A stretch of DNA of 64,000 nt from Saprospiraceae bacterium. Its GTDB lineage: Bacteria; Bacteroidota; Bacteroidia; Chitinophagales; Saprospiraceae. The notes beneath the pieces are model-generated. The model had not been told where the DNA came from, ran no database searches, and was given only the letters and a program-made list of their open reading frames with translations. Where the stretch lies: contig JAHDDE010000001.1 of the NCBI GenBank assembly GCA_020629515.1, positions 113,783 through 177,782 on the forward strand, given 5' to 3'. Positions 19,239 to 28,124 of this stretch are shown in pieces; position 1 is the stretch's first letter; every line of letters starts with the position of its first letter. A program made the position numbers and the translations under genes.

Positions 19239-20849
19239 TTAATTAATGATAAAGGACATTGTTCCTAAGTCCCTTGCGGCAGGATCACCTGGGCATTTAC
19301 ACTTAATATTCTCAAAAAAGAATCTGTCTCCTGGTTTTGCCTTGCCAATAACTCTTTTAGCATCACCTTTAAAGGAGCCTCCTGGGTTAACTGCAACTTC
19401 TGGATCCTCTCTTCTCGGCACTCTTACTACATTAAATCCAGCTATGTTACATTTCGCATCAAAGTCAAAACCTTGCAACACTGGAATCATACCTGGTTGC
19501 GCTTTAAAGGTTCCAGATCCCATCTTACCTCCTCTACTTTTAGATAGCATCGGTATCGGATCAGGTATCCTTTTAACTCTGAATTCTTTAGATGCAGTAA
19601 AGCCAGGTGCTGACAGCTTTACATTGGCAAAGCTACCTTGCTTAGTAGGTTTGGTCACCTTGACATTATAAGTTCCGTCACTGTTTTTAGAGATACTACC
19701 ACCTCCATCTCCAGTCATAGAAACTTTTACTTGATTACTAGGTACACCCGCCACAGATACTTCTACAGGATTATCAACACCTATGTAAAAAACATTCATC
19801 TTTGCAGCTGAAATAGTAGCAGACCTTTCACCTACCTCATATTCATAAGTTCGCTTAAATGATTGCACTTCTCCTGTAACAGGGTTTTTTATCGAAGCTT
19901 CAACATCATATTTCTTCTTACCTACTCCATTGGCCTTAGCAGAAAACTCCGCTACACCTTCACTATTCAAGCTAAGCGGCCTTCCATTTACACTAATTGA
20001 TACTCCTGTATTGGACTCCGCTGAGGCAGATGCACTCATAAATACTTCTGTCTTAAATGTTTCTCCATTGATTACATAAGTTTTCTCTGGAGATGATACA
20101 ACAGTAAATTTATCAAGCACGACATCCGTGTTAGTCCCTACCTTATTAGCTAAATAGTTGAGAAAAGTAGCTTCGGTACTTATCACATCATTTTGAAACT
20201 TTCTAAAGATAGGTAACACAGCCTGAACGGGCATTTGCTTGAAATTAAAAGTAGCCCAATCAAATTTGGCATTTTTTGACTTCGTAGCAGCCTTTTCTCT
20301 CCATGTCTCGTCATCTATAATTGATGGAATTTCATTAGCAAAAGAAGCTCTATCTTCTTCATCAACGAGATCCAATATTTTCTGACGATAGTCTATGAGT
20401 TGTTGTTTCAACTCTTCACCTCTACCTTCTTTTACAAGAAGTCTTGATGTCACATCTTTATTCTTCTTACCTCTTAAGGTAGTGGTTTTCTTTCCGTCTT
20501 TGAATACATAATCTCCATCATCATATTCACCATTTTGATTACCAGAAGCATCTATCAACCAATCCATGATTTCATCCATTTCTTGGTTCATCGTTTTTGA
20601 TAATTCTTGAGCTGGCTCTATTCTCTCCGCATATTGTTCTAAGGCCTTCTTCTTTTTGGCTCCATCACGTATCAGTTCTGGTAGCGCTTTATTAGACTCT
20701 TCTAATGCCTTATTAGATTTAATAAGACCTTTATCAACAATCTTGAATGCATTAAATATTTCTGCGGATACATTAAGGGCCAACATCGCTGTCAATACCA
20801 AATACATGATATTGATCATCAGGGCCCGGGGTTCCTTAGGAATTGACAT
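19239..20849 (-). CDS. gldM: gliding motility/type IX secretion protein GldM (PorM)
   Basis: GldM spans the periplasm and, with GldL, forms the proton-driven motor of the T9SS. There is one N-terminal membrane helix (LMINIMYLVLTAMLALNVS) preceded by KEPR. A long helical region (about 40-220) follows, then a series of beta domains. The C-terminus has NPGGSFKGDAKRVIGKAKPGD and a KCKCPGD segment. At 536 residues it is in the family range. The gene follows gldL by 34 nt. Confidence 0.95.
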   Translation of the reverse strand: MSIPKEPRALMINIMYLVLTAMLALNVSAEIFNAFKIVDKGLIKSNKALEESNKALPELIRDGAKKKKALEQYAERIEPAQELSKTMNQEMDEIMDWLIDASGNQNGEYDDGDYVFKDGKKTTTLRGKKNKDVTSRLLVKEGRGEELKQQLIDYRQKILDLVDEEDRASFANEIPSIIDDETWREKAATKSKNAKFDWATFNFKQMPVQAVLPIFRKFQNDVISTEATFLNYLANKVGTNTDVVLDKFTVVSSPEKTYVINGETFKTEVFMSASASAESNTGVSISVNGRPLSLNSEGVAEFSAKANGVGKKKYDVEASIKNPVTGEVQSFKRTYEYEVGERSATISAAKMNVFYIGVDNPVEVSVAGVPSNQVKVSMTGDGGGSISKNSDGTYNVKVTKPTKQGSFANVKLSAPGFTASKEFRVKRIPDPIPMLSKSRGGKMGSGTFKAQPGMIPVLQGFDFDAKCNIAGFNVVRVPRREDPEVAVNPGGSFKGDAKRVIGKAKPGDRFFFENIKCKCPGDPAARDLGTMSFIIN

Positions 20850-20883
20850 TTTCTTTGGGTATTAATTTATTAATTAATGTAAC

Positions 20884-21498
20884 CTATTGCTTAACTGTAA
20901 ATGCGCTCAACACATTACCATATACAGAATTCAAAGAAGATAAATTTCTATTAAGAGAAGCCATCTGATCTTTATACATCTTAGTATCCTCAACAGTCTC
21001 ACTTAAAGAAGACATCGCTTCATTCAACTTTCCGTAAAAATTATGGGCCGCTTGAAGTTGTTGAGATGTTTCACTAAAGTCTACCTCTTGTAAAGCCTTA
21101 AGTGATCCCAAACTTTTAGACATGGATTGTAGTTCATCCAACATTCCACCTAATTGATTTTCAACCACTTCTGCATTAAGTGCCCTTGCGTCGACTGCAG
21201 CTGAGCTTGCTGCTATCTGACCTCCGGATAATGGAGCGATTGAAGCATTATGAGAATCTAAACCTGGATATAATTTCTCCCAGTAGTAATCTTTTTCTGG
21301 TCCCAATATACCTAACATAAAGAATAGAATCGCTTCTGTTACTAGTCCTACCGTCAATAGGTCTACTTTAAAACCTGCAACAACTGGCTGTTCCCAAGAC
21401 TGTATTTTATACAATGCACCTAACATCACTAATGCTGCACCTACACCGATTATAAGGTTTTTGAAATATTTAAAACCTGAAGAATGTACAAAACTCAT
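20884..21498 (-). CDS. gldL: gliding motility/type IX secretion motor protein GldL (PorL)
   Basis: GldL is an inner-membrane protein of 204 residues. It has two N-terminal transmembrane helices: FKNLIIGVGAALVMLGALY, and a second containing VGLVTEAILFFMLG. Glu55 in the second helix is at the place of the conserved glutamate thought to carry protons in the GldLM motor. The remaining 140 residues are cytoplasmic and coiled-coil-like. The gene lies between gldK (47 nt) and gldM (34 nt). Confidence 0.94.
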   Translation of the reverse strand: MSFVHSSGFKYFKNLIIGVGAALVMLGALYKIQSWEQPVVAGFKVDLLTVGLVTEAILFFMLGILGPEKDYYWEKLYPGLDSHNASIAPLSGGQIAASSAAVDARALNAEVVENQLGGMLDELQSMSKSLGSLKALQEVDFSETSQQLQAAHNFYGKLNEAMSSLSETVEDTKMYKDQMASLNRNLSSLNSVYGNVLSAFTVKQ

Positions 21499-21545
21499 TT
21501 TAAATTGATTTTATTGAAGTTTAAATTTTGCGAAATAAGGGTAAA

Positions 21546-22793
21546 TTAAAAGTCGTCTATCGAGCGTCCTAAAAATGTCATAGCACATCTAAAACCGATA
21601 TAAGACTTAGCAGAGTCTTGGTACTCTCTATCTCTGGTACCTGTCTGCAAGAAATAATAAATATCTTTCCATGATCCTCCTCTTACTACTTTTAGTTTGA
21701 ATGCTGCAGGATCATCATCCTTAGCATTATACTTTAAATCTGGGTTTAGATCATGTATATGTTGGTATGCATTTGCAGTGTAAGTCGTTTCAGTCCATTC
21801 AGAGACATTGCCCGCCATATTATATAACCCGTAATCATTAGGGAAATAAGAATCTACAGGCACAGTATGCATACCTCCATCTTCGGCATAATTCCCTCTG
21901 CCAGGCTTAAAATTAGCTAAGAGACATCCTTTGCTATTTCTAACATAGTATCCTCCCCATGGATATGGTGCTAAATCATGTCCACCTCTTGATGCATATT
22001 CCCATTCAAATTCAGTGGGTAGTCTAAAATTCTCAACAAGAGATTGGTCGTCTCCTAATTCATCATTCCAAATTTTAGTTCTCCAATGGCAGAATGCTTG
22101 TGCTTGTGGCCAAGTAACACCTACTACTGGGTAATCATCAAATGCCGCATGATCAAAATAATGTCTGGTCATAGGCTCATTATAACTATAACTAAAGTCT
22201 CTTATCCATACGAATGGATCAGGAACAATATTTACTGTTTTCTTTTCTATTACTTCAGATCTTCTACCAGCATAATTTCCACTTGCTGCTTTTTTCCAAT
22301 TGATCCAATCGTAAGTATATTCTAACAGATCTGGATTAAGTTCTCTTCTACCACTAAGAGCCATATCTTTTGAAAAGAACATTTCATCTAAATCTTCAGA
22401 TTCGTAATCGAGTTCCATTTCCCAATCAATTTCTTCATTCCCAAAATTATCTTCGATATAATCTCCCATGATTTCATGCCCTTTAGCATCTCTAACCCAT
22501 TCTACAAATTGGCGATATTCATTATTGGATATTTCTGTTTCATCCATATAAAATCCTGTAATTGAAATGGATTTGGGTCTGGTGGTATAGGCACTGAATA
22601 TATCTTGGTCGCTCTGACCAACATTCAAATATCCAGATGGTACGTAAACCATGCCATATGGATTAATCGTTCCTTTCCATTTAGGTCTTTCCTGTGAACC
22701 TATTAATTGGCCTCCATTATCTCTTCCGCAGCTACTCATTAAGATGAGAGCAATCAAACAAGAAAAAACAATATTGATGTTCCTCTGTGTCAT
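21546..22793 (-). CDS. gldK: T9SS ring lipoprotein GldK (PorK)
   Basis: GldK is an outer-membrane lipoprotein that forms the periplasmic ring of the T9SS with GldN. It has a lipobox LMSSC with Cys22. It then has a formylglycine-generating-enzyme/sulfatase-modifying fold: GFYMDETEISNNEYRQF, VGVTWPQAQAFCHWR, FRLPTEFEWEYASRGG, NMAGNVSEWTETTY and VVRGGSWKD. At 415 residues it fits the family. It is the first gene of the gldKLMN run and is preceded by 244 bases of non-coding DNA that separate it from porP. Confidence 0.95.
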   Translation of the reverse strand: MTQRNINIVFSCLIALILMSSCGRDNGGQLIGSQERPKWKGTINPYGMVYVPSGYLNVGQSDQDIFSAYTTRPKSISITGFYMDETEISNNEYRQFVEWVRDAKGHEIMGDYIEDNFGNEEIDWEMELDYESEDLDEMFFSKDMALSGRRELNPDLLEYTYDWINWKKAASGNYAGRRSEVIEKKTVNIVPDPFVWIRDFSYSYNEPMTRHYFDHAAFDDYPVVGVTWPQAQAFCHWRTKIWNDELGDDQSLVENFRLPTEFEWEYASRGGHDLAPYPWGGYYVRNSKGCLLANFKPGRGNYAEDGGMHTVPVDSYFPNDYGLYNMAGNVSEWTETTYTANAYQHIHDLNPDLKYNAKDDDPAAFKLKVVRGGSWKDIYYFLQTGTRDREYQDSAKSYIGFRCAMTFLGRSIDDF

Positions 22794-22991
22794 CTAAAAA
22801 TCTATTTAAATAAAAATATTTAGGGTTAAAACTTTATAGAAACTGCAAACCATTATGAAATAGTATGTCACAGTTACTCTAAATGACAATAAATTGACAT
22901 TTATACCCTTTCAAAAAACGTGCTAATCTTCCATATATTTTAAAAAAATGTCAACTACTTTACATTTAGGCCCTAAATAACTGATAATGAC

Positions 22992-23020
22992 AAGCTTAAA
23001 AAATCGTATATTTTAAGCTT
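22992..23020. repeat. 10-bp inverted repeat between porP and gldK
   Basis: AAGCTTAAAA (22992-23001) and TTTTAAGCTT (23011-23020) form a 10-bp stem with a 9-nt loop, 18 nt past the porP stop. No clear T-tract follows on the minus strand, so it may be a weak terminator, an RNA-processing hairpin or an operator for gldK. The rest of the 244-base gap (22794-23037) is AT-rich with no gene and no promoter match I trust. Confidence 0.4.
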
Positions 23021-23037
23021 ACTGTGACTTAATCAGC

Positions 23038-24009
23038 CTAATTGAATCTTGGATTGTAGATGATTTTAGGCAATTCTGCTGTTCTTATTTTTTTATTGAG
23101 ATTATAGTTAAGAATGAACTCGTGGGTATTGTCATGAAAGGAACTTAGTTTTGAGATTCCAAAATCGTAGGAATAGGAAATTCTGATATGTTCATTCAAT
23201 TTAGTCCCTAAGATAAAGTTGATGGCATCGATAGATCGACTATTGTAACCTCTGATCGTCAGCCCTCCCATGATATTATTGTATCGGCCTATTGCTCCTA
23301 AGTCAGTTTGTGTTTGGACAAAATCCGATTTGACCAATAAAATGGGAGAAACAACTATCTGAGATATAAGAGGAATGTCATAGCTATAAAAAAGAGAGAA
23401 CAATTGCTTTTGTCTAAACTGGGAACTGCCTGATGGGCTCAACGATACAGGGACATTATCTAAGCTTAAACCTAACTCTCCATATCCAGTAGCAGCATAG
23501 AGACTAAATCCATAGATGATCGAACTCCCTCTCATATCTCCTGACAATAAAATAGGATCATTATGATTAATAGCATTATCTACATAAGTCCCTGACGGCG
23601 TAACTAATCTCGAACCGTCTATCTCTACTTGAGAAAGGCCAAATTTAACACCAAGAGACAATAAGACTCCTGGCATTTCGCCAACATAATTATAAGAGGT
23701 AGTTAAATCAGTTTTGACAAGAGGTCCTAAGGATTCGTTTTGAATACTAATTCCGGCTGATCCAGACAAAAAATAAAGTGGCAAGTGTGCATTGATAAAT
23801 TGAGTCTTTGGGGCTCCATCAAATCCGCTCCATTGTGACCTTAATCCCGCCGTAATACTTAATGAGGATTCTAATCCGCCATATGCTGCGCTAAAACCAT
23901 ACCGGTTGAACATGAATTGGGTACTTTGTGTACCTTGTTGGCCTGTAAGAACATTACAAAATAAGAACAGGCTTAATACCAATATGATATGTGCTGATAT
24001 CTTGGACAT
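23038..24009 (-). CDS. porP: type IX secretion outer-membrane protein, PorP/SprF family
   Basis: This is a 323-residue outer-membrane barrel protein. After a signal peptide (cut near LTGQ) comes the family start TQFMFNRYGFSAAYGG, which corresponds to the 'QxMxNxxxxNPAYAG' region of PorP/SprF. Alternating beta-strand segments follow, with IRISYSYDFGISKLSSF and an EFILNYNL-type final strand. PorP-like proteins link secreted type-B substrates to the T9SS. It precedes gldK on the same strand, the usual porP-porKLMN order, and follows the MBL hydrolase gene by 35 nt. Confidence 0.92.
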   Translation of the reverse strand: MSKISAHIILVLSLFLFCNVLTGQQGTQSTQFMFNRYGFSAAYGGLESSLSITAGLRSQWSGFDGAPKTQFINAHLPLYFLSGSAGISIQNESLGPLVKTDLTTSYNYVGEMPGVLLSLGVKFGLSQVEIDGSRLVTPSGTYVDNAINHNDPILLSGDMRGSSIIYGFSLYAATGYGELGLSLDNVPVSLSPSGSSQFRQKQLFSLFYSYDIPLISQIVVSPILLVKSDFVQTQTDLGAIGRYNNIMGGLTIRGYNSRSIDAINFILGTKLNEHIRISYSYDFGISKLSSFHDNTHEFILNYNLNKKIRTAELPKIIYNPRFN

Positions 24010-26597: not shown

Positions 26598-26636
26598 TTT
26601 AGATTAATCTAAATTTAATATATTTACTAATCTAAA
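26598..26636. promoter_or_regulatory. putative DtxR/MntR-type operator with a second partial site
   Basis: TTTAGATTAATCTAAA (26598-26613) is a perfect 16-bp palindrome. A second, weaker copy TTTACTAATCTAAA follows at 26623-26636, sharing the half-site AATCTAAA at a 23-nt offset. Both lie within 51 nt of the start of the permease-DtxR fusion gene. The form resembles metal-repressor boxes of the DtxR/MntR family. Its function is inferred from position and symmetry. Confidence 0.55.
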
Positions 26637-26648
26637 ATTTATTGGACA

Positions 26649-28124
26649 TTGGACTTAATCAATATACTAAGTGAAGAATGGGCTATCCGTGCATTAATTG
26701 CTTCCTCATTAGTGGGCATTATGTGTGGTGTGATTGGCAGCTTTATGGTCTTAAGAAACATGTCATTAATTGGTGATGCTCTTTCTCATGCTATACTACC
26801 TGGGATTTTTGCGGCATTTGTTTTAATTGGCTATAGTTCATTAGGCTTTTTTGTCGGAACGCTTTTGGCTGCACTGTTCAGTGCAGTAGCTATAACTTGG
26901 ATTCAAGAGAATGTAAAAACTAAAAATGATGCAGCAATAGGAATCATTTTCACTTTCATGTTTTCGTTAGGAGTCATTGGGATTTCCTACCTCAACAATC
27001 AAGAAGGAGTCCACTTAGACCTAAAGGATTTTCTCTTCGGGACGATACTTGGTGTATCAAATGAAGATCTTTATATCACAGGTATTGTAACGGTCTATTC
27101 TCTCATCAGTATTGTTGTTTTCTACAGGTATCTTTTTATCACAACATTTCAGCCAACAATAGCACAAACGATGGGGATATCTGTCAAGATGATTCATTAT
27201 TTCTTAATGTTATTATTGTCTTTTGCAGTTGTCGCAGCTCTTAGAACAGTGGGAATTATTCTTGTGGTAGCCATGTTGATCACTCCAAGTGCTACAGCAT
27301 TGCTATTAAGTAACAAACTCAAAACAGTATTGGTATTGTCGGGATTGTTTGGGTTACTTTCGGCCATTGTTGGCCTGATAGTGGCAATCCTCCTTAATAC
27401 AACTCCAGGTCCTGCAATGTGTGTCATTGCCACTATTTTCTACTTTATCGCCGTATTCTTTTCCCCATCGAAAGGATTGATGTTCAAATACCTCAGAAAA
27501 CAAAACCAAAATCAACAAATCGAAAAAGAAGACATTGTTAAGTTATTGTTTAAAAAAAGCGATCACAACATACCATCAGCTATACAGATTGGAGAAGAAT
27601 TAGGTATTAAGCCAAATAAGGTTAAAAAGTATATTGCTCAACTGCAGTCAGACGGATTGATGACCCATGGAAAGAATACTCTCACAGCTAAAGGAAATGC
27701 AATAGCCGAAGAATTGGTCAGAGCGCATAGACTGTGGGAGACTTTTTTAGTAGACCAAGTAGGACTTAGTGATCAGAACATCCATGAAGATGCTGAAAAG
27801 TATGAACACCTCTTGAGTTCTGAAATATTAGATCAGCTCGATATAAAATTGGGATATCCCACGAGAGATCCTCATGGTTCTCCTATACCTGAAAAAAGAA
27901 TAAAGGCGGATAATCCCTTGCTGAAATTAAAACCAAAAGCGAGAGCAAGAATATCCAAACAGCAGATCGACAGTACGGTTGAAAGTAAACTTTGGGAATT
28001 AGGGTTAAATGCCGATCAATCTATTCAAGTCTTGACTATTGATAAAGATCAGATTATTATAAAGTGTAGCGATAAAGAGTATGCCATCCCTGCCGACCTG
28101 GCTGAAAAGATAAACATGGCTTGA
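26649..28124 (+). CDS. metal ABC transporter permease fused to a DtxR/MntR-type repressor
   Basis: This 491-residue protein has two parts. Residues 1-275 form an ABC-3 family (ZnuB/MntB) permease with about eight spans, including LRNMSLIGDALSHAILPG and LRTVGIILVVAMLITPSATA. Residues 293-491 are an iron/manganese-dependent repressor: winged helix (about 295-350), dimerisation helix with metal ligands His360 (RAHRLWE) and Glu383, Glu386, His387 (EKYEH), the DPHGSPIP motif, and a C-terminal FeoA/SH3-like end. The start is TTG. No ATPase or binding protein is adjacent. It probably imports Mn or Fe and senses it at the membrane. Confidence 0.9.
   Translation: MDLINILSEEWAIRALIASSLVGIMCGVIGSFMVLRNMSLIGDALSHAILPGIFAAFVLIGYSSLGFFVGTLLAALFSAVAITWIQENVKTKNDAAIGIIFTFMFSLGVIGISYLNNQEGVHLDLKDFLFGTILGVSNEDLYITGIVTVYSLISIVVFYRYLFITTFQPTIAQTMGISVKMIHYFLMLLLSFAVVAALRTVGIILVVAMLITPSATALLLSNKLKTVLVLSGLFGLLSAIVGLIVAILLNTTPGPAMCVIATIFYFIAVFFSPSKGLMFKYLRKQNQNQQIEKEDIVKLLFKKSDHNIPSAIQIGEELGIKPNKVKKYIAQLQSDGLMTHGKNTLTAKGNAIAEELVRAHRLWETFLVDQVGLSDQNIHEDAEKYEHLLSSEILDQLDIKLGYPTRDPHGSPIPEKRIKADNPLLKLKPKARARISKQQIDSTVESKLWELGLNADQSIQVLTIDKDQIIIKCSDKEYAIPADLAEKINMA

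Follow-up and report, generated by a model that had tools for sequence, protein, structure and literature searches.

An ABC-type metal permease from a Saprospiraceae genome carries a DtxR-derived C-terminus, and the explanation towards which we lean, if only slightly, is that a separate MntR reads the operator in front of the fusion gene and the fused domain, as a module of the transporter, senses metal and acts on transport. The fusion architecture itself is already known from Chlamydia YtgCR, through which permease-DtxR fusions are usually read as repressors kept on a transporter; a 2017 review credits Thompson et al. (2012) with the discovery of such fusions in 11 phyla. Comparison of related genomes parts the two halves of the fused domain: where an MntR coexists with the fusion, the operator, the MntR recognition helix and the metal core are fixed, and the DNA-reading surface of the fused protein drifts.

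A metal permease with a DtxR-derived C-terminus

The window, by which we mean the whole 64,000-nucleotide stretch of DNA that was analysed, holds the following features in and before the fusion gene.

26598..26613, unstranded: putative MntR-type operator TTTAGA-TTAA-TCTAAA (TTTAGATTAATCTAAA, exact), kept before the fusion and before mntR-SBP operons
26619..26626, plus strand: promoter -7-like element TATATTTA, one off TAnnTTTG, read from the window sequence
26649..28124, plus strand: permease-DtxR fusion gene, ORF of 491 aa with a TTG start
26676..27461, plus strand: ABC-3 permease domain, residues 10-271 (PF00950, 2e-69), PsaC-like by sequence and model
27522..27683, plus strand: winged-helix part, residues 292-345, recognition surface not conserved (PF01325 below cut-off)
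27684..27893, plus strand: DtxR metal-binding and dimerisation domain, residues 346-415 (PF02742, Fe_dep_repr_C, 1e-26)
27915..28115, plus strand: FeoA/SH3-like domain, residues 423-489 (PF04023, 2e-6)

The gene thus starts at 26649, and position 26598 is the start of the palindrome. The Pfam matches bear out the fusion of a metal ABC permease to a DtxR domain that an earlier note on this DNA had described. The permease domain matches PsaC (7kyp), is the sole ABC-3 match in its own genome (3.9 Mb, 98 contigs) and is extended by about 215 cytoplasmic residues. The metal ligands named in the earlier note (His360, Glu383, Glu386 and His387) are all present and nearly invariant among orthologues: in an alignment of 38 proteins of the window's type, from which three ytgABCD-like family members were left out, H360, E364, H379, E386 and H387 are kept in 38/38, while residue 383 is E in 33 and D in the other five. 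Asp295 is also invariant in these 38 proteins. PF01325, the DtxR DNA-binding domain, reaches 17.7 bits in the window's protein against a Pfam cut-off of 26, and the FeoA part has a Pfam match in 20/29 orthologues.

In the AlphaFold2 model of the fusion (mean pLDDT 88.6), the last transmembrane segment runs into a single helix, residues 277-302, which is helix 1 of the DtxR part. The winged-helix fold is kept in the model with high pLDDT, and the FeoA part is modelled with low confidence.

The fusion gene is solitary in the window, with no ATPase or binding-protein gene adjoining it, just as the note had stated. Elsewhere in the window, at 19239-24009 on the minus strand, there are what we take to be gliding/type IX secretion-like genes (GldM, GldL, GldK, PorP), which fit a Bacteroidota genome.

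A conserved operator upstream of the fusion

The palindrome TTTAGATTAATCTAAA begins 51 nt ahead of the fusion start codon, inside the 55-nt gap after the preceding gene; the earlier note, too, had placed it directly upstream. By itself it is not significant in the window, which holds three perfect 16-bp palindromes against 1.85 expected from base composition, and on this point too the note was right. It becomes significant because it is conserved upstream of orthologues. A search of 61 family genomes with the fusion protein gave some match in 58, and the 43 genomes considered below are those with a permease-DtxR fusion, or a piece of one, by gene calls on the loci. Allowing at most one mismatch, the operator lies within 300 nt upstream of the fusion or permease gene in 32/43 family genomes (25 exact) and before 29/34 mntR-SBP operons (17 exact), compared with 17/295 other ORFs of the same loci, a control set in which the upstream region of some ORFs may also be that of mnt genes. 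Of the first 30 loci, 22 have an exact TTTAGANNNNTCTAAA in the 300 nt before the gene and four more have it with a single mismatch, 26 in all. Across loci the site is nearly unvarying except for its four central bases, and TTTAGA-N4-TCTAAA is almost certainly a conserved operator.

Three of the 11 genomes without the site before the fusion (G003, G005 and G022) have a single operon, mntR-SBP-ATPase-fusion, whose only operator precedes mntR. In a further three (G008, G031 and G037) the fusion stands in another, ytgABCD-like arrangement; the contig stops at the fusion gene in G007, and in G036 the fusion gene directly follows an SBP-matching ORF. In G004, G009 and G013, no operator site was found within 300 nt upstream of the fusion. 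The sequence TAnnTTTG, presumably the Bacteroidota -7 element, occurs no more than 40 nt after the operator in 21/32 fusion loci and 16/29 mntR loci, versus 2% of random windows.

Two other lines of evidence were rejected. The earlier note had proposed a second half-site, AATCTAAA (26629-26636), but a further half-site within 40 nt downstream is found in only 4/32 fusion loci. Genome-wide palindrome counts are uninformative as well, since the genome has five exact TTTAGANNNNTCTAAA sites versus four for the reversed control pattern. The three further sites overlap an ORF start (L011, on C53), lie inside an ORF (L012, on C56) or stand about 25 nt upstream of one (L013, on C65), and none of the ORFs at these sites is obviously a metal gene.

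A separate MntR and the partner subunits share the operator

On contig C23 of the same genome, mntR and the genes for a binding protein and an ATPase follow one another, and no permease gene comes next. TTTAGACTGCTCTAAA, the same element as that before the fusion, starts 49 nt before this mntR; the palindrome therefore also precedes other metal genes of the genome, and the ATPase is located. In this putative MntR regulon, the transporter genes share one operator upstream. The genome holds a single binding protein of the ZnuA/PsaA type. It has two DtxR metal domains, the second of them in the separate DtxR at C23:31300, a protein with PF01325, PF02742, FeoA and a conserved recognition helix, whose gene has the operator in its promoter. 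PsaA-type manganese proteins are the best match of the binding protein (1e-60), followed by TroA (3e-48), with ZnuA less close. Given this order, the substrate of the importer is likely to be manganese, possibly iron.

A separate DtxR is present in 40/43 family genomes, and none was found in the drafts of the other three (G009, G036 and G054). In G031, one of the genomes with a ytgABCD-like arrangement, MntR (L056:6800-7465) has a different recognition helix and there is a shifted operator-like site, GTTAGACAACTCTAAC; this single case is as expected if MntR reads the site.

The DNA-reading half varies and the metal core is kept

In the 32 paired genomes, that is, those with both a fused and a separate protein, the mean identity of the recognition helix (MntR positions 36-48) is 23% among fused orthologues and 73% among separate MntRs. 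The corresponding values are 22% and 58% for the wing, and 66% and 73% for the metal/dimer domain; the sequences are related, so that the compared pairs are not independent. At E <= 0.001, PF01325 is found in 0/29 fused proteins (the first 30 fusions minus one partial) versus 32/32 separate proteins (34 MntRs minus those of G031 and G043), whereas PF02742 is found in 29/29 and 32/32, respectively. Among the 38 proteins of the window's type, 0/44 HTH/wing columns exceed 0.8 identity, versus 46% of the metal-domain columns, and mean column identity is 0.67 for the metal/dimer domain and likewise 0.67 for the permease. The FeoA part stands at 0.31 versus 0.23 for HTH/wing (p = 0.06). Bits against an HTH profile (fused medians 5.6-8.4, maximum 28.3; separate DtxR minimum 67.6) were replaced by the Pfam counts as a criterion, the profile having been built from those same separate proteins.

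An unvarying site calls for an unvarying reader, a role that suits MntR and not the fused domain. On these sequence comparisons, the separate MntR is very probably what reads TTTAGA-N4-TCTAAA, and the fused domain is probably not a reader of it. The earlier note's view of the C-terminus as an intact repressor is thus hard to maintain. An operator does lie in the promoter of the fusion, but in place of the autoregulation proposed in the note, control is probably exerted by MntR, whose helix is nearly invariant. It should also be noted that the fused wHTH is positively charged (mean +3.5 versus +2.3 in MntR), and non-specific DNA binding by it is possible.

Fusions in Chlamydiae and other phyla

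A phylum search covered 247 genomes, 39 of which matched at E <= 1e-40, and a scan of named genomes was followed to its best 80 loci. A second fusion type, in SBP-ATPase-permease.DtxR-permease operons, occurs among the matches listed in Bacteroidota, Balneolia, Verrucomicrobia, Planctomycetota, Omnitrophota, Sumerlaeota and Chlamydiae. Of the Chlamydiae, 49/50 genomes match; G366 matches only to a permease. Nineteen small genomes, presumably Chlamydiaceae, form a set in which 13 have the WWW motif, which is reported to be highly conserved across Chlamydiaceae YtgCR.

At a permease identity of 0.68, the recognition helix is 0.67 identical in this Chlamydiaceae-like set (110 pairs) and 0.23 identical in the window's type, or type A (561 pairs). 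Hence the helix measure does detect constraint where a fused repressor is reported. The whole HTH/wing of the Chlamydiaceae-like set (0.49) is nevertheless less conserved than its metal core (0.69). At permease identities of 0.6-0.8, helix identity is 0.39 in 28 other Chlamydiae (17 pairs) and 0.37 in the second Bacteroidota type, or type B (22 pairs). At 0.45-0.65, it falls to 0.20 in the other, environmental Chlamydiae (293 pairs) and 0.23 in the second Bacteroidota type, and is still 0.46 in the Chlamydiaceae-like set (41 pairs). The near-absence of helix constraint is therefore clearest in the window's own family, with the other fusions intermediate.

Divergence from the canonical HTH is no proof of lost DNA binding, because Chlamydiae fusions score low (1.8 bits for L190, 5.3 bits for L208) although YtgR is reported to bind DNA. 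Chlamydiae without a separate DtxR also have low HTH scores, which weakens the equation of a low score with no DNA binding; for this reason the within-clade comparison was used. HTH bits compared by presence or absence of a separate DtxR in 27 genomes across phyla showed no clear difference, as judged by eye.

In three Chlamydiae fusions (L241, L253 and L256) the HTH segment is 11-20 residues below the median length, with the metal motif intact. In Planctomycetota, Omnitrophota and related genomes, both permease subunits have DtxR-like C-termini (L180, L184, L187, L189, L191, L192, L199, L200, L213 and L220 among the matches listed), and the first subunit of these loci has an altered metal motif, HVDRDAD..EH.

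The leading alternative is that the fused domain is a YtgR-like repressor which, whether still anchored in the membrane or released by cleavage, occupies the palindrome in its metal-loaded form and controls its own gene. C. trachomatis YtgR, which comes from a homologous fusion, is reported to be cleaved, to bind DNA and to repress; there, YtgC is part of ytgABCD and YtgR is called the sole identified iron-dependent regulator in Chlamydia trachomatis. The window's fusion matches YtgCR in domain order and metal ligands, the operator is directly upstream, and its positively charged wHTH has a predicted fold. Yet the recognition helix is only 23% identical under a constant operator, PF01325 is matched by none of the 29 fused proteins, a canonical MntR with the same operator exists in the genome, and the continuous helix 277-302 of the model would offer no obvious flexible cutting site. 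We regard this alternative as unlikely.

Origin of the fused core and related modules

In a tree of the metal cores, 118 fused cores split from 63 separate DtxRs with a support of 0.885 (0.769 after adding six more sequences); the tree uses about 70 residues, its best split was chosen from all nodes, and L257 and L258 are included twice. Since the two groups separate, the tree suggests that the fused core is one old module, inherited along with the permease.

Other ABC-3 permeases of about 370-390 aa, mostly paired, have a C-terminal winged helix and no metal domain (L194, L203, L205, L212, L218, L225 and L228; Winogradskyella, Caldithrix, Rhodothermaceae, Tissierellia and Anaerolineales records, among others, in the matches listed). 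Their winged helix aligns with the fused region at 99.3% hhalign probability (15 sequences). As these permeases lack the metal domain, a winged helix attached to a permease needs no DtxR function.

Six family genomes encode, directly before FeoB, a membrane-anchored DtxR-core protein of 337-350 aa (L114:3655-4668, L116:3584-4621, L108:2560-3600, L109:2669-3715, L112:2404-3456 and L105:14-1036), with FeoB identified by Pfam in L114 and by motif in the other five. This protein combines an N-terminal hydrophobic, TM-like segment, a divergent winged helix, a DtxR metal domain and FeoA, the last in one or two stretches by Pfam, and in L114, L116 and L108 it is preceded by a separate DtxR. The simplest common account of the fused, the winged-helix-only and the FeoB-side proteins would be a metal-sensing regulatory domain on a transporter.

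Proposed mechanism and remaining alternatives

In the explanation that we prefer, the fusion would supply the membrane subunit to an ABC importer for manganese (or iron) of the PsaA/TroA type. The importer would be encoded at two loci, the rest of it lying with mntR on C23 under the same operator. Metal-loaded MntR would bind TTTAGA-N4-TCTAAA and shut both promoters, a step that we infer strongly. The C-terminus of the permease would no longer read this operator and would be kept for its metal-binding, dimerising core, held beneath the membrane by the continuous helix from the last transmembrane segment. Within the permease dimer, two such cores could come together, bind Mn or Fe from the cytoplasm and, when metal-bound, damp transport, a form of substrate feedback or trans-inhibition in which the winged helix would be a structural spacer. 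Metal uptake may thus be adjusted at both the gene and the protein level.

This explanation draws on the presence of one permease, one SBP and two DtxR metal domains in the genome, on the shared operator of the mntR-SBP-ATPase operon together with the single operons of G003, G005 and G022, on the recognition helix that varies in the fused proteins and stays fixed in MntR, on the helix constraint seen in the Chlamydiaceae-like set, on the permeases that have a winged helix and no metal domain, and on the parallel of a membrane-anchored DtxR core beside FeoB. Against it count the reported DNA binding and repression by YtgR, the intermediate helix identities of the other fusions, the weak FeoA conservation, the three of 43 genomes without a separate DtxR, the predicted wHTH fold with its positive charge, and the hypervariable winged-helix surface, which also seems unlike a conserved ATPase contact. 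Whether the fused domain acts on transport is, on its own, an evenly balanced proposition.

Feedback may be dispensed with if the core serves in the cytoplasm as a structural or metal-accepting domain, required for assembly or for passing the metal on. The strongly conserved ligands, the rigid link to the permease in the model and the related permeases that carry a winged helix alone would all suit this role, but DtxR cores are, to our knowledge, switches in all characterised cases, and we find the proposal quite improbable. Little more can be expected of a scheme in which the dimer domain common to both proteins lets the fused core pair with MntR and keep it at the membrane, so that the activity of the repressor would depend on how much transporter is present. 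Both proteins do have the conserved PF02742 domain and coexist in 40/43 genomes; however, the core is also conserved in Chlamydiae, where G305 and G306 gave only a fusion-sized DtxR match, and fused and separate cores split cleanly in the tree. That the domain is a decaying leftover without function, as the variable HTH and the patchy FeoA match (20/29) might hint, is scarcely credible when its metal/dimer domain is as conserved as the permease and the ligands are invariant.

More broadly, and with more doubt than confidence, we propose that the main role of DtxR-type cores on Mn/Fe ABC permeases, across many phyla, is to sense metal for the transporter at the post-translational level. Most lineages would have lost DNA recognition or left it unconstrained, and a clear constraint would persist only in some, Chlamydiaceae among them. 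If true, the DtxR fold would serve transporters as an allosteric domain, and the proteins beside FeoB would be a parallel. A literature search, with most subscription papers outside its scope, found no report of lost DNA recognition in fused DtxR domains, no description of a DtxR-type transport-inhibition domain and no report of this operator in Bacteroidota. For manganese control in the window's Bacteroidota family, the comparison supplies an operator and a regulon spread over two loci. It also suggests caution in carrying the repressor model of YtgR over to other phyla and to environmental Chlamydiae, and raises the testable question of whether a former repressor senses metal to gate its own importer.

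Comparison with known systems

With YtgCR, the window's fusion shares the N-terminal ABC-3 permease and the DtxR metal/dimer domain with its ligands, and their fused cores group together. Unlike YtgCR, the window's gene is solitary and encodes the only ABC-3 permease, with its partners on another contig and no second permease; a separate canonical MntR coexists with it, and its HTH is not conserved. The fused C-terminus has the domain order and metal ligands of the MntR/DtxR/TroR repressors (PF01325, PF02742 and FeoA), but PF01325 is recognised in none of the 29 fused proteins at the threshold used. Compared with the PsaBC/TroCD manganese importers, the permease matches PsaC and the binding protein PsaA, and the difference lies in the extra cytoplasmic residues. 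In MetNI and ModABC, by contrast, the regulatory domains are on the ATPase subunit and have other folds. Both are given as ABC importers with known feedback (trans-)inhibition in a review whose main text has 0 occurrences of 'DtxR'. What the fusion would have in common with them, by analogy, is the proposed logic of a substrate-binding cytoplasmic regulatory domain that leads to feedback inhibition.
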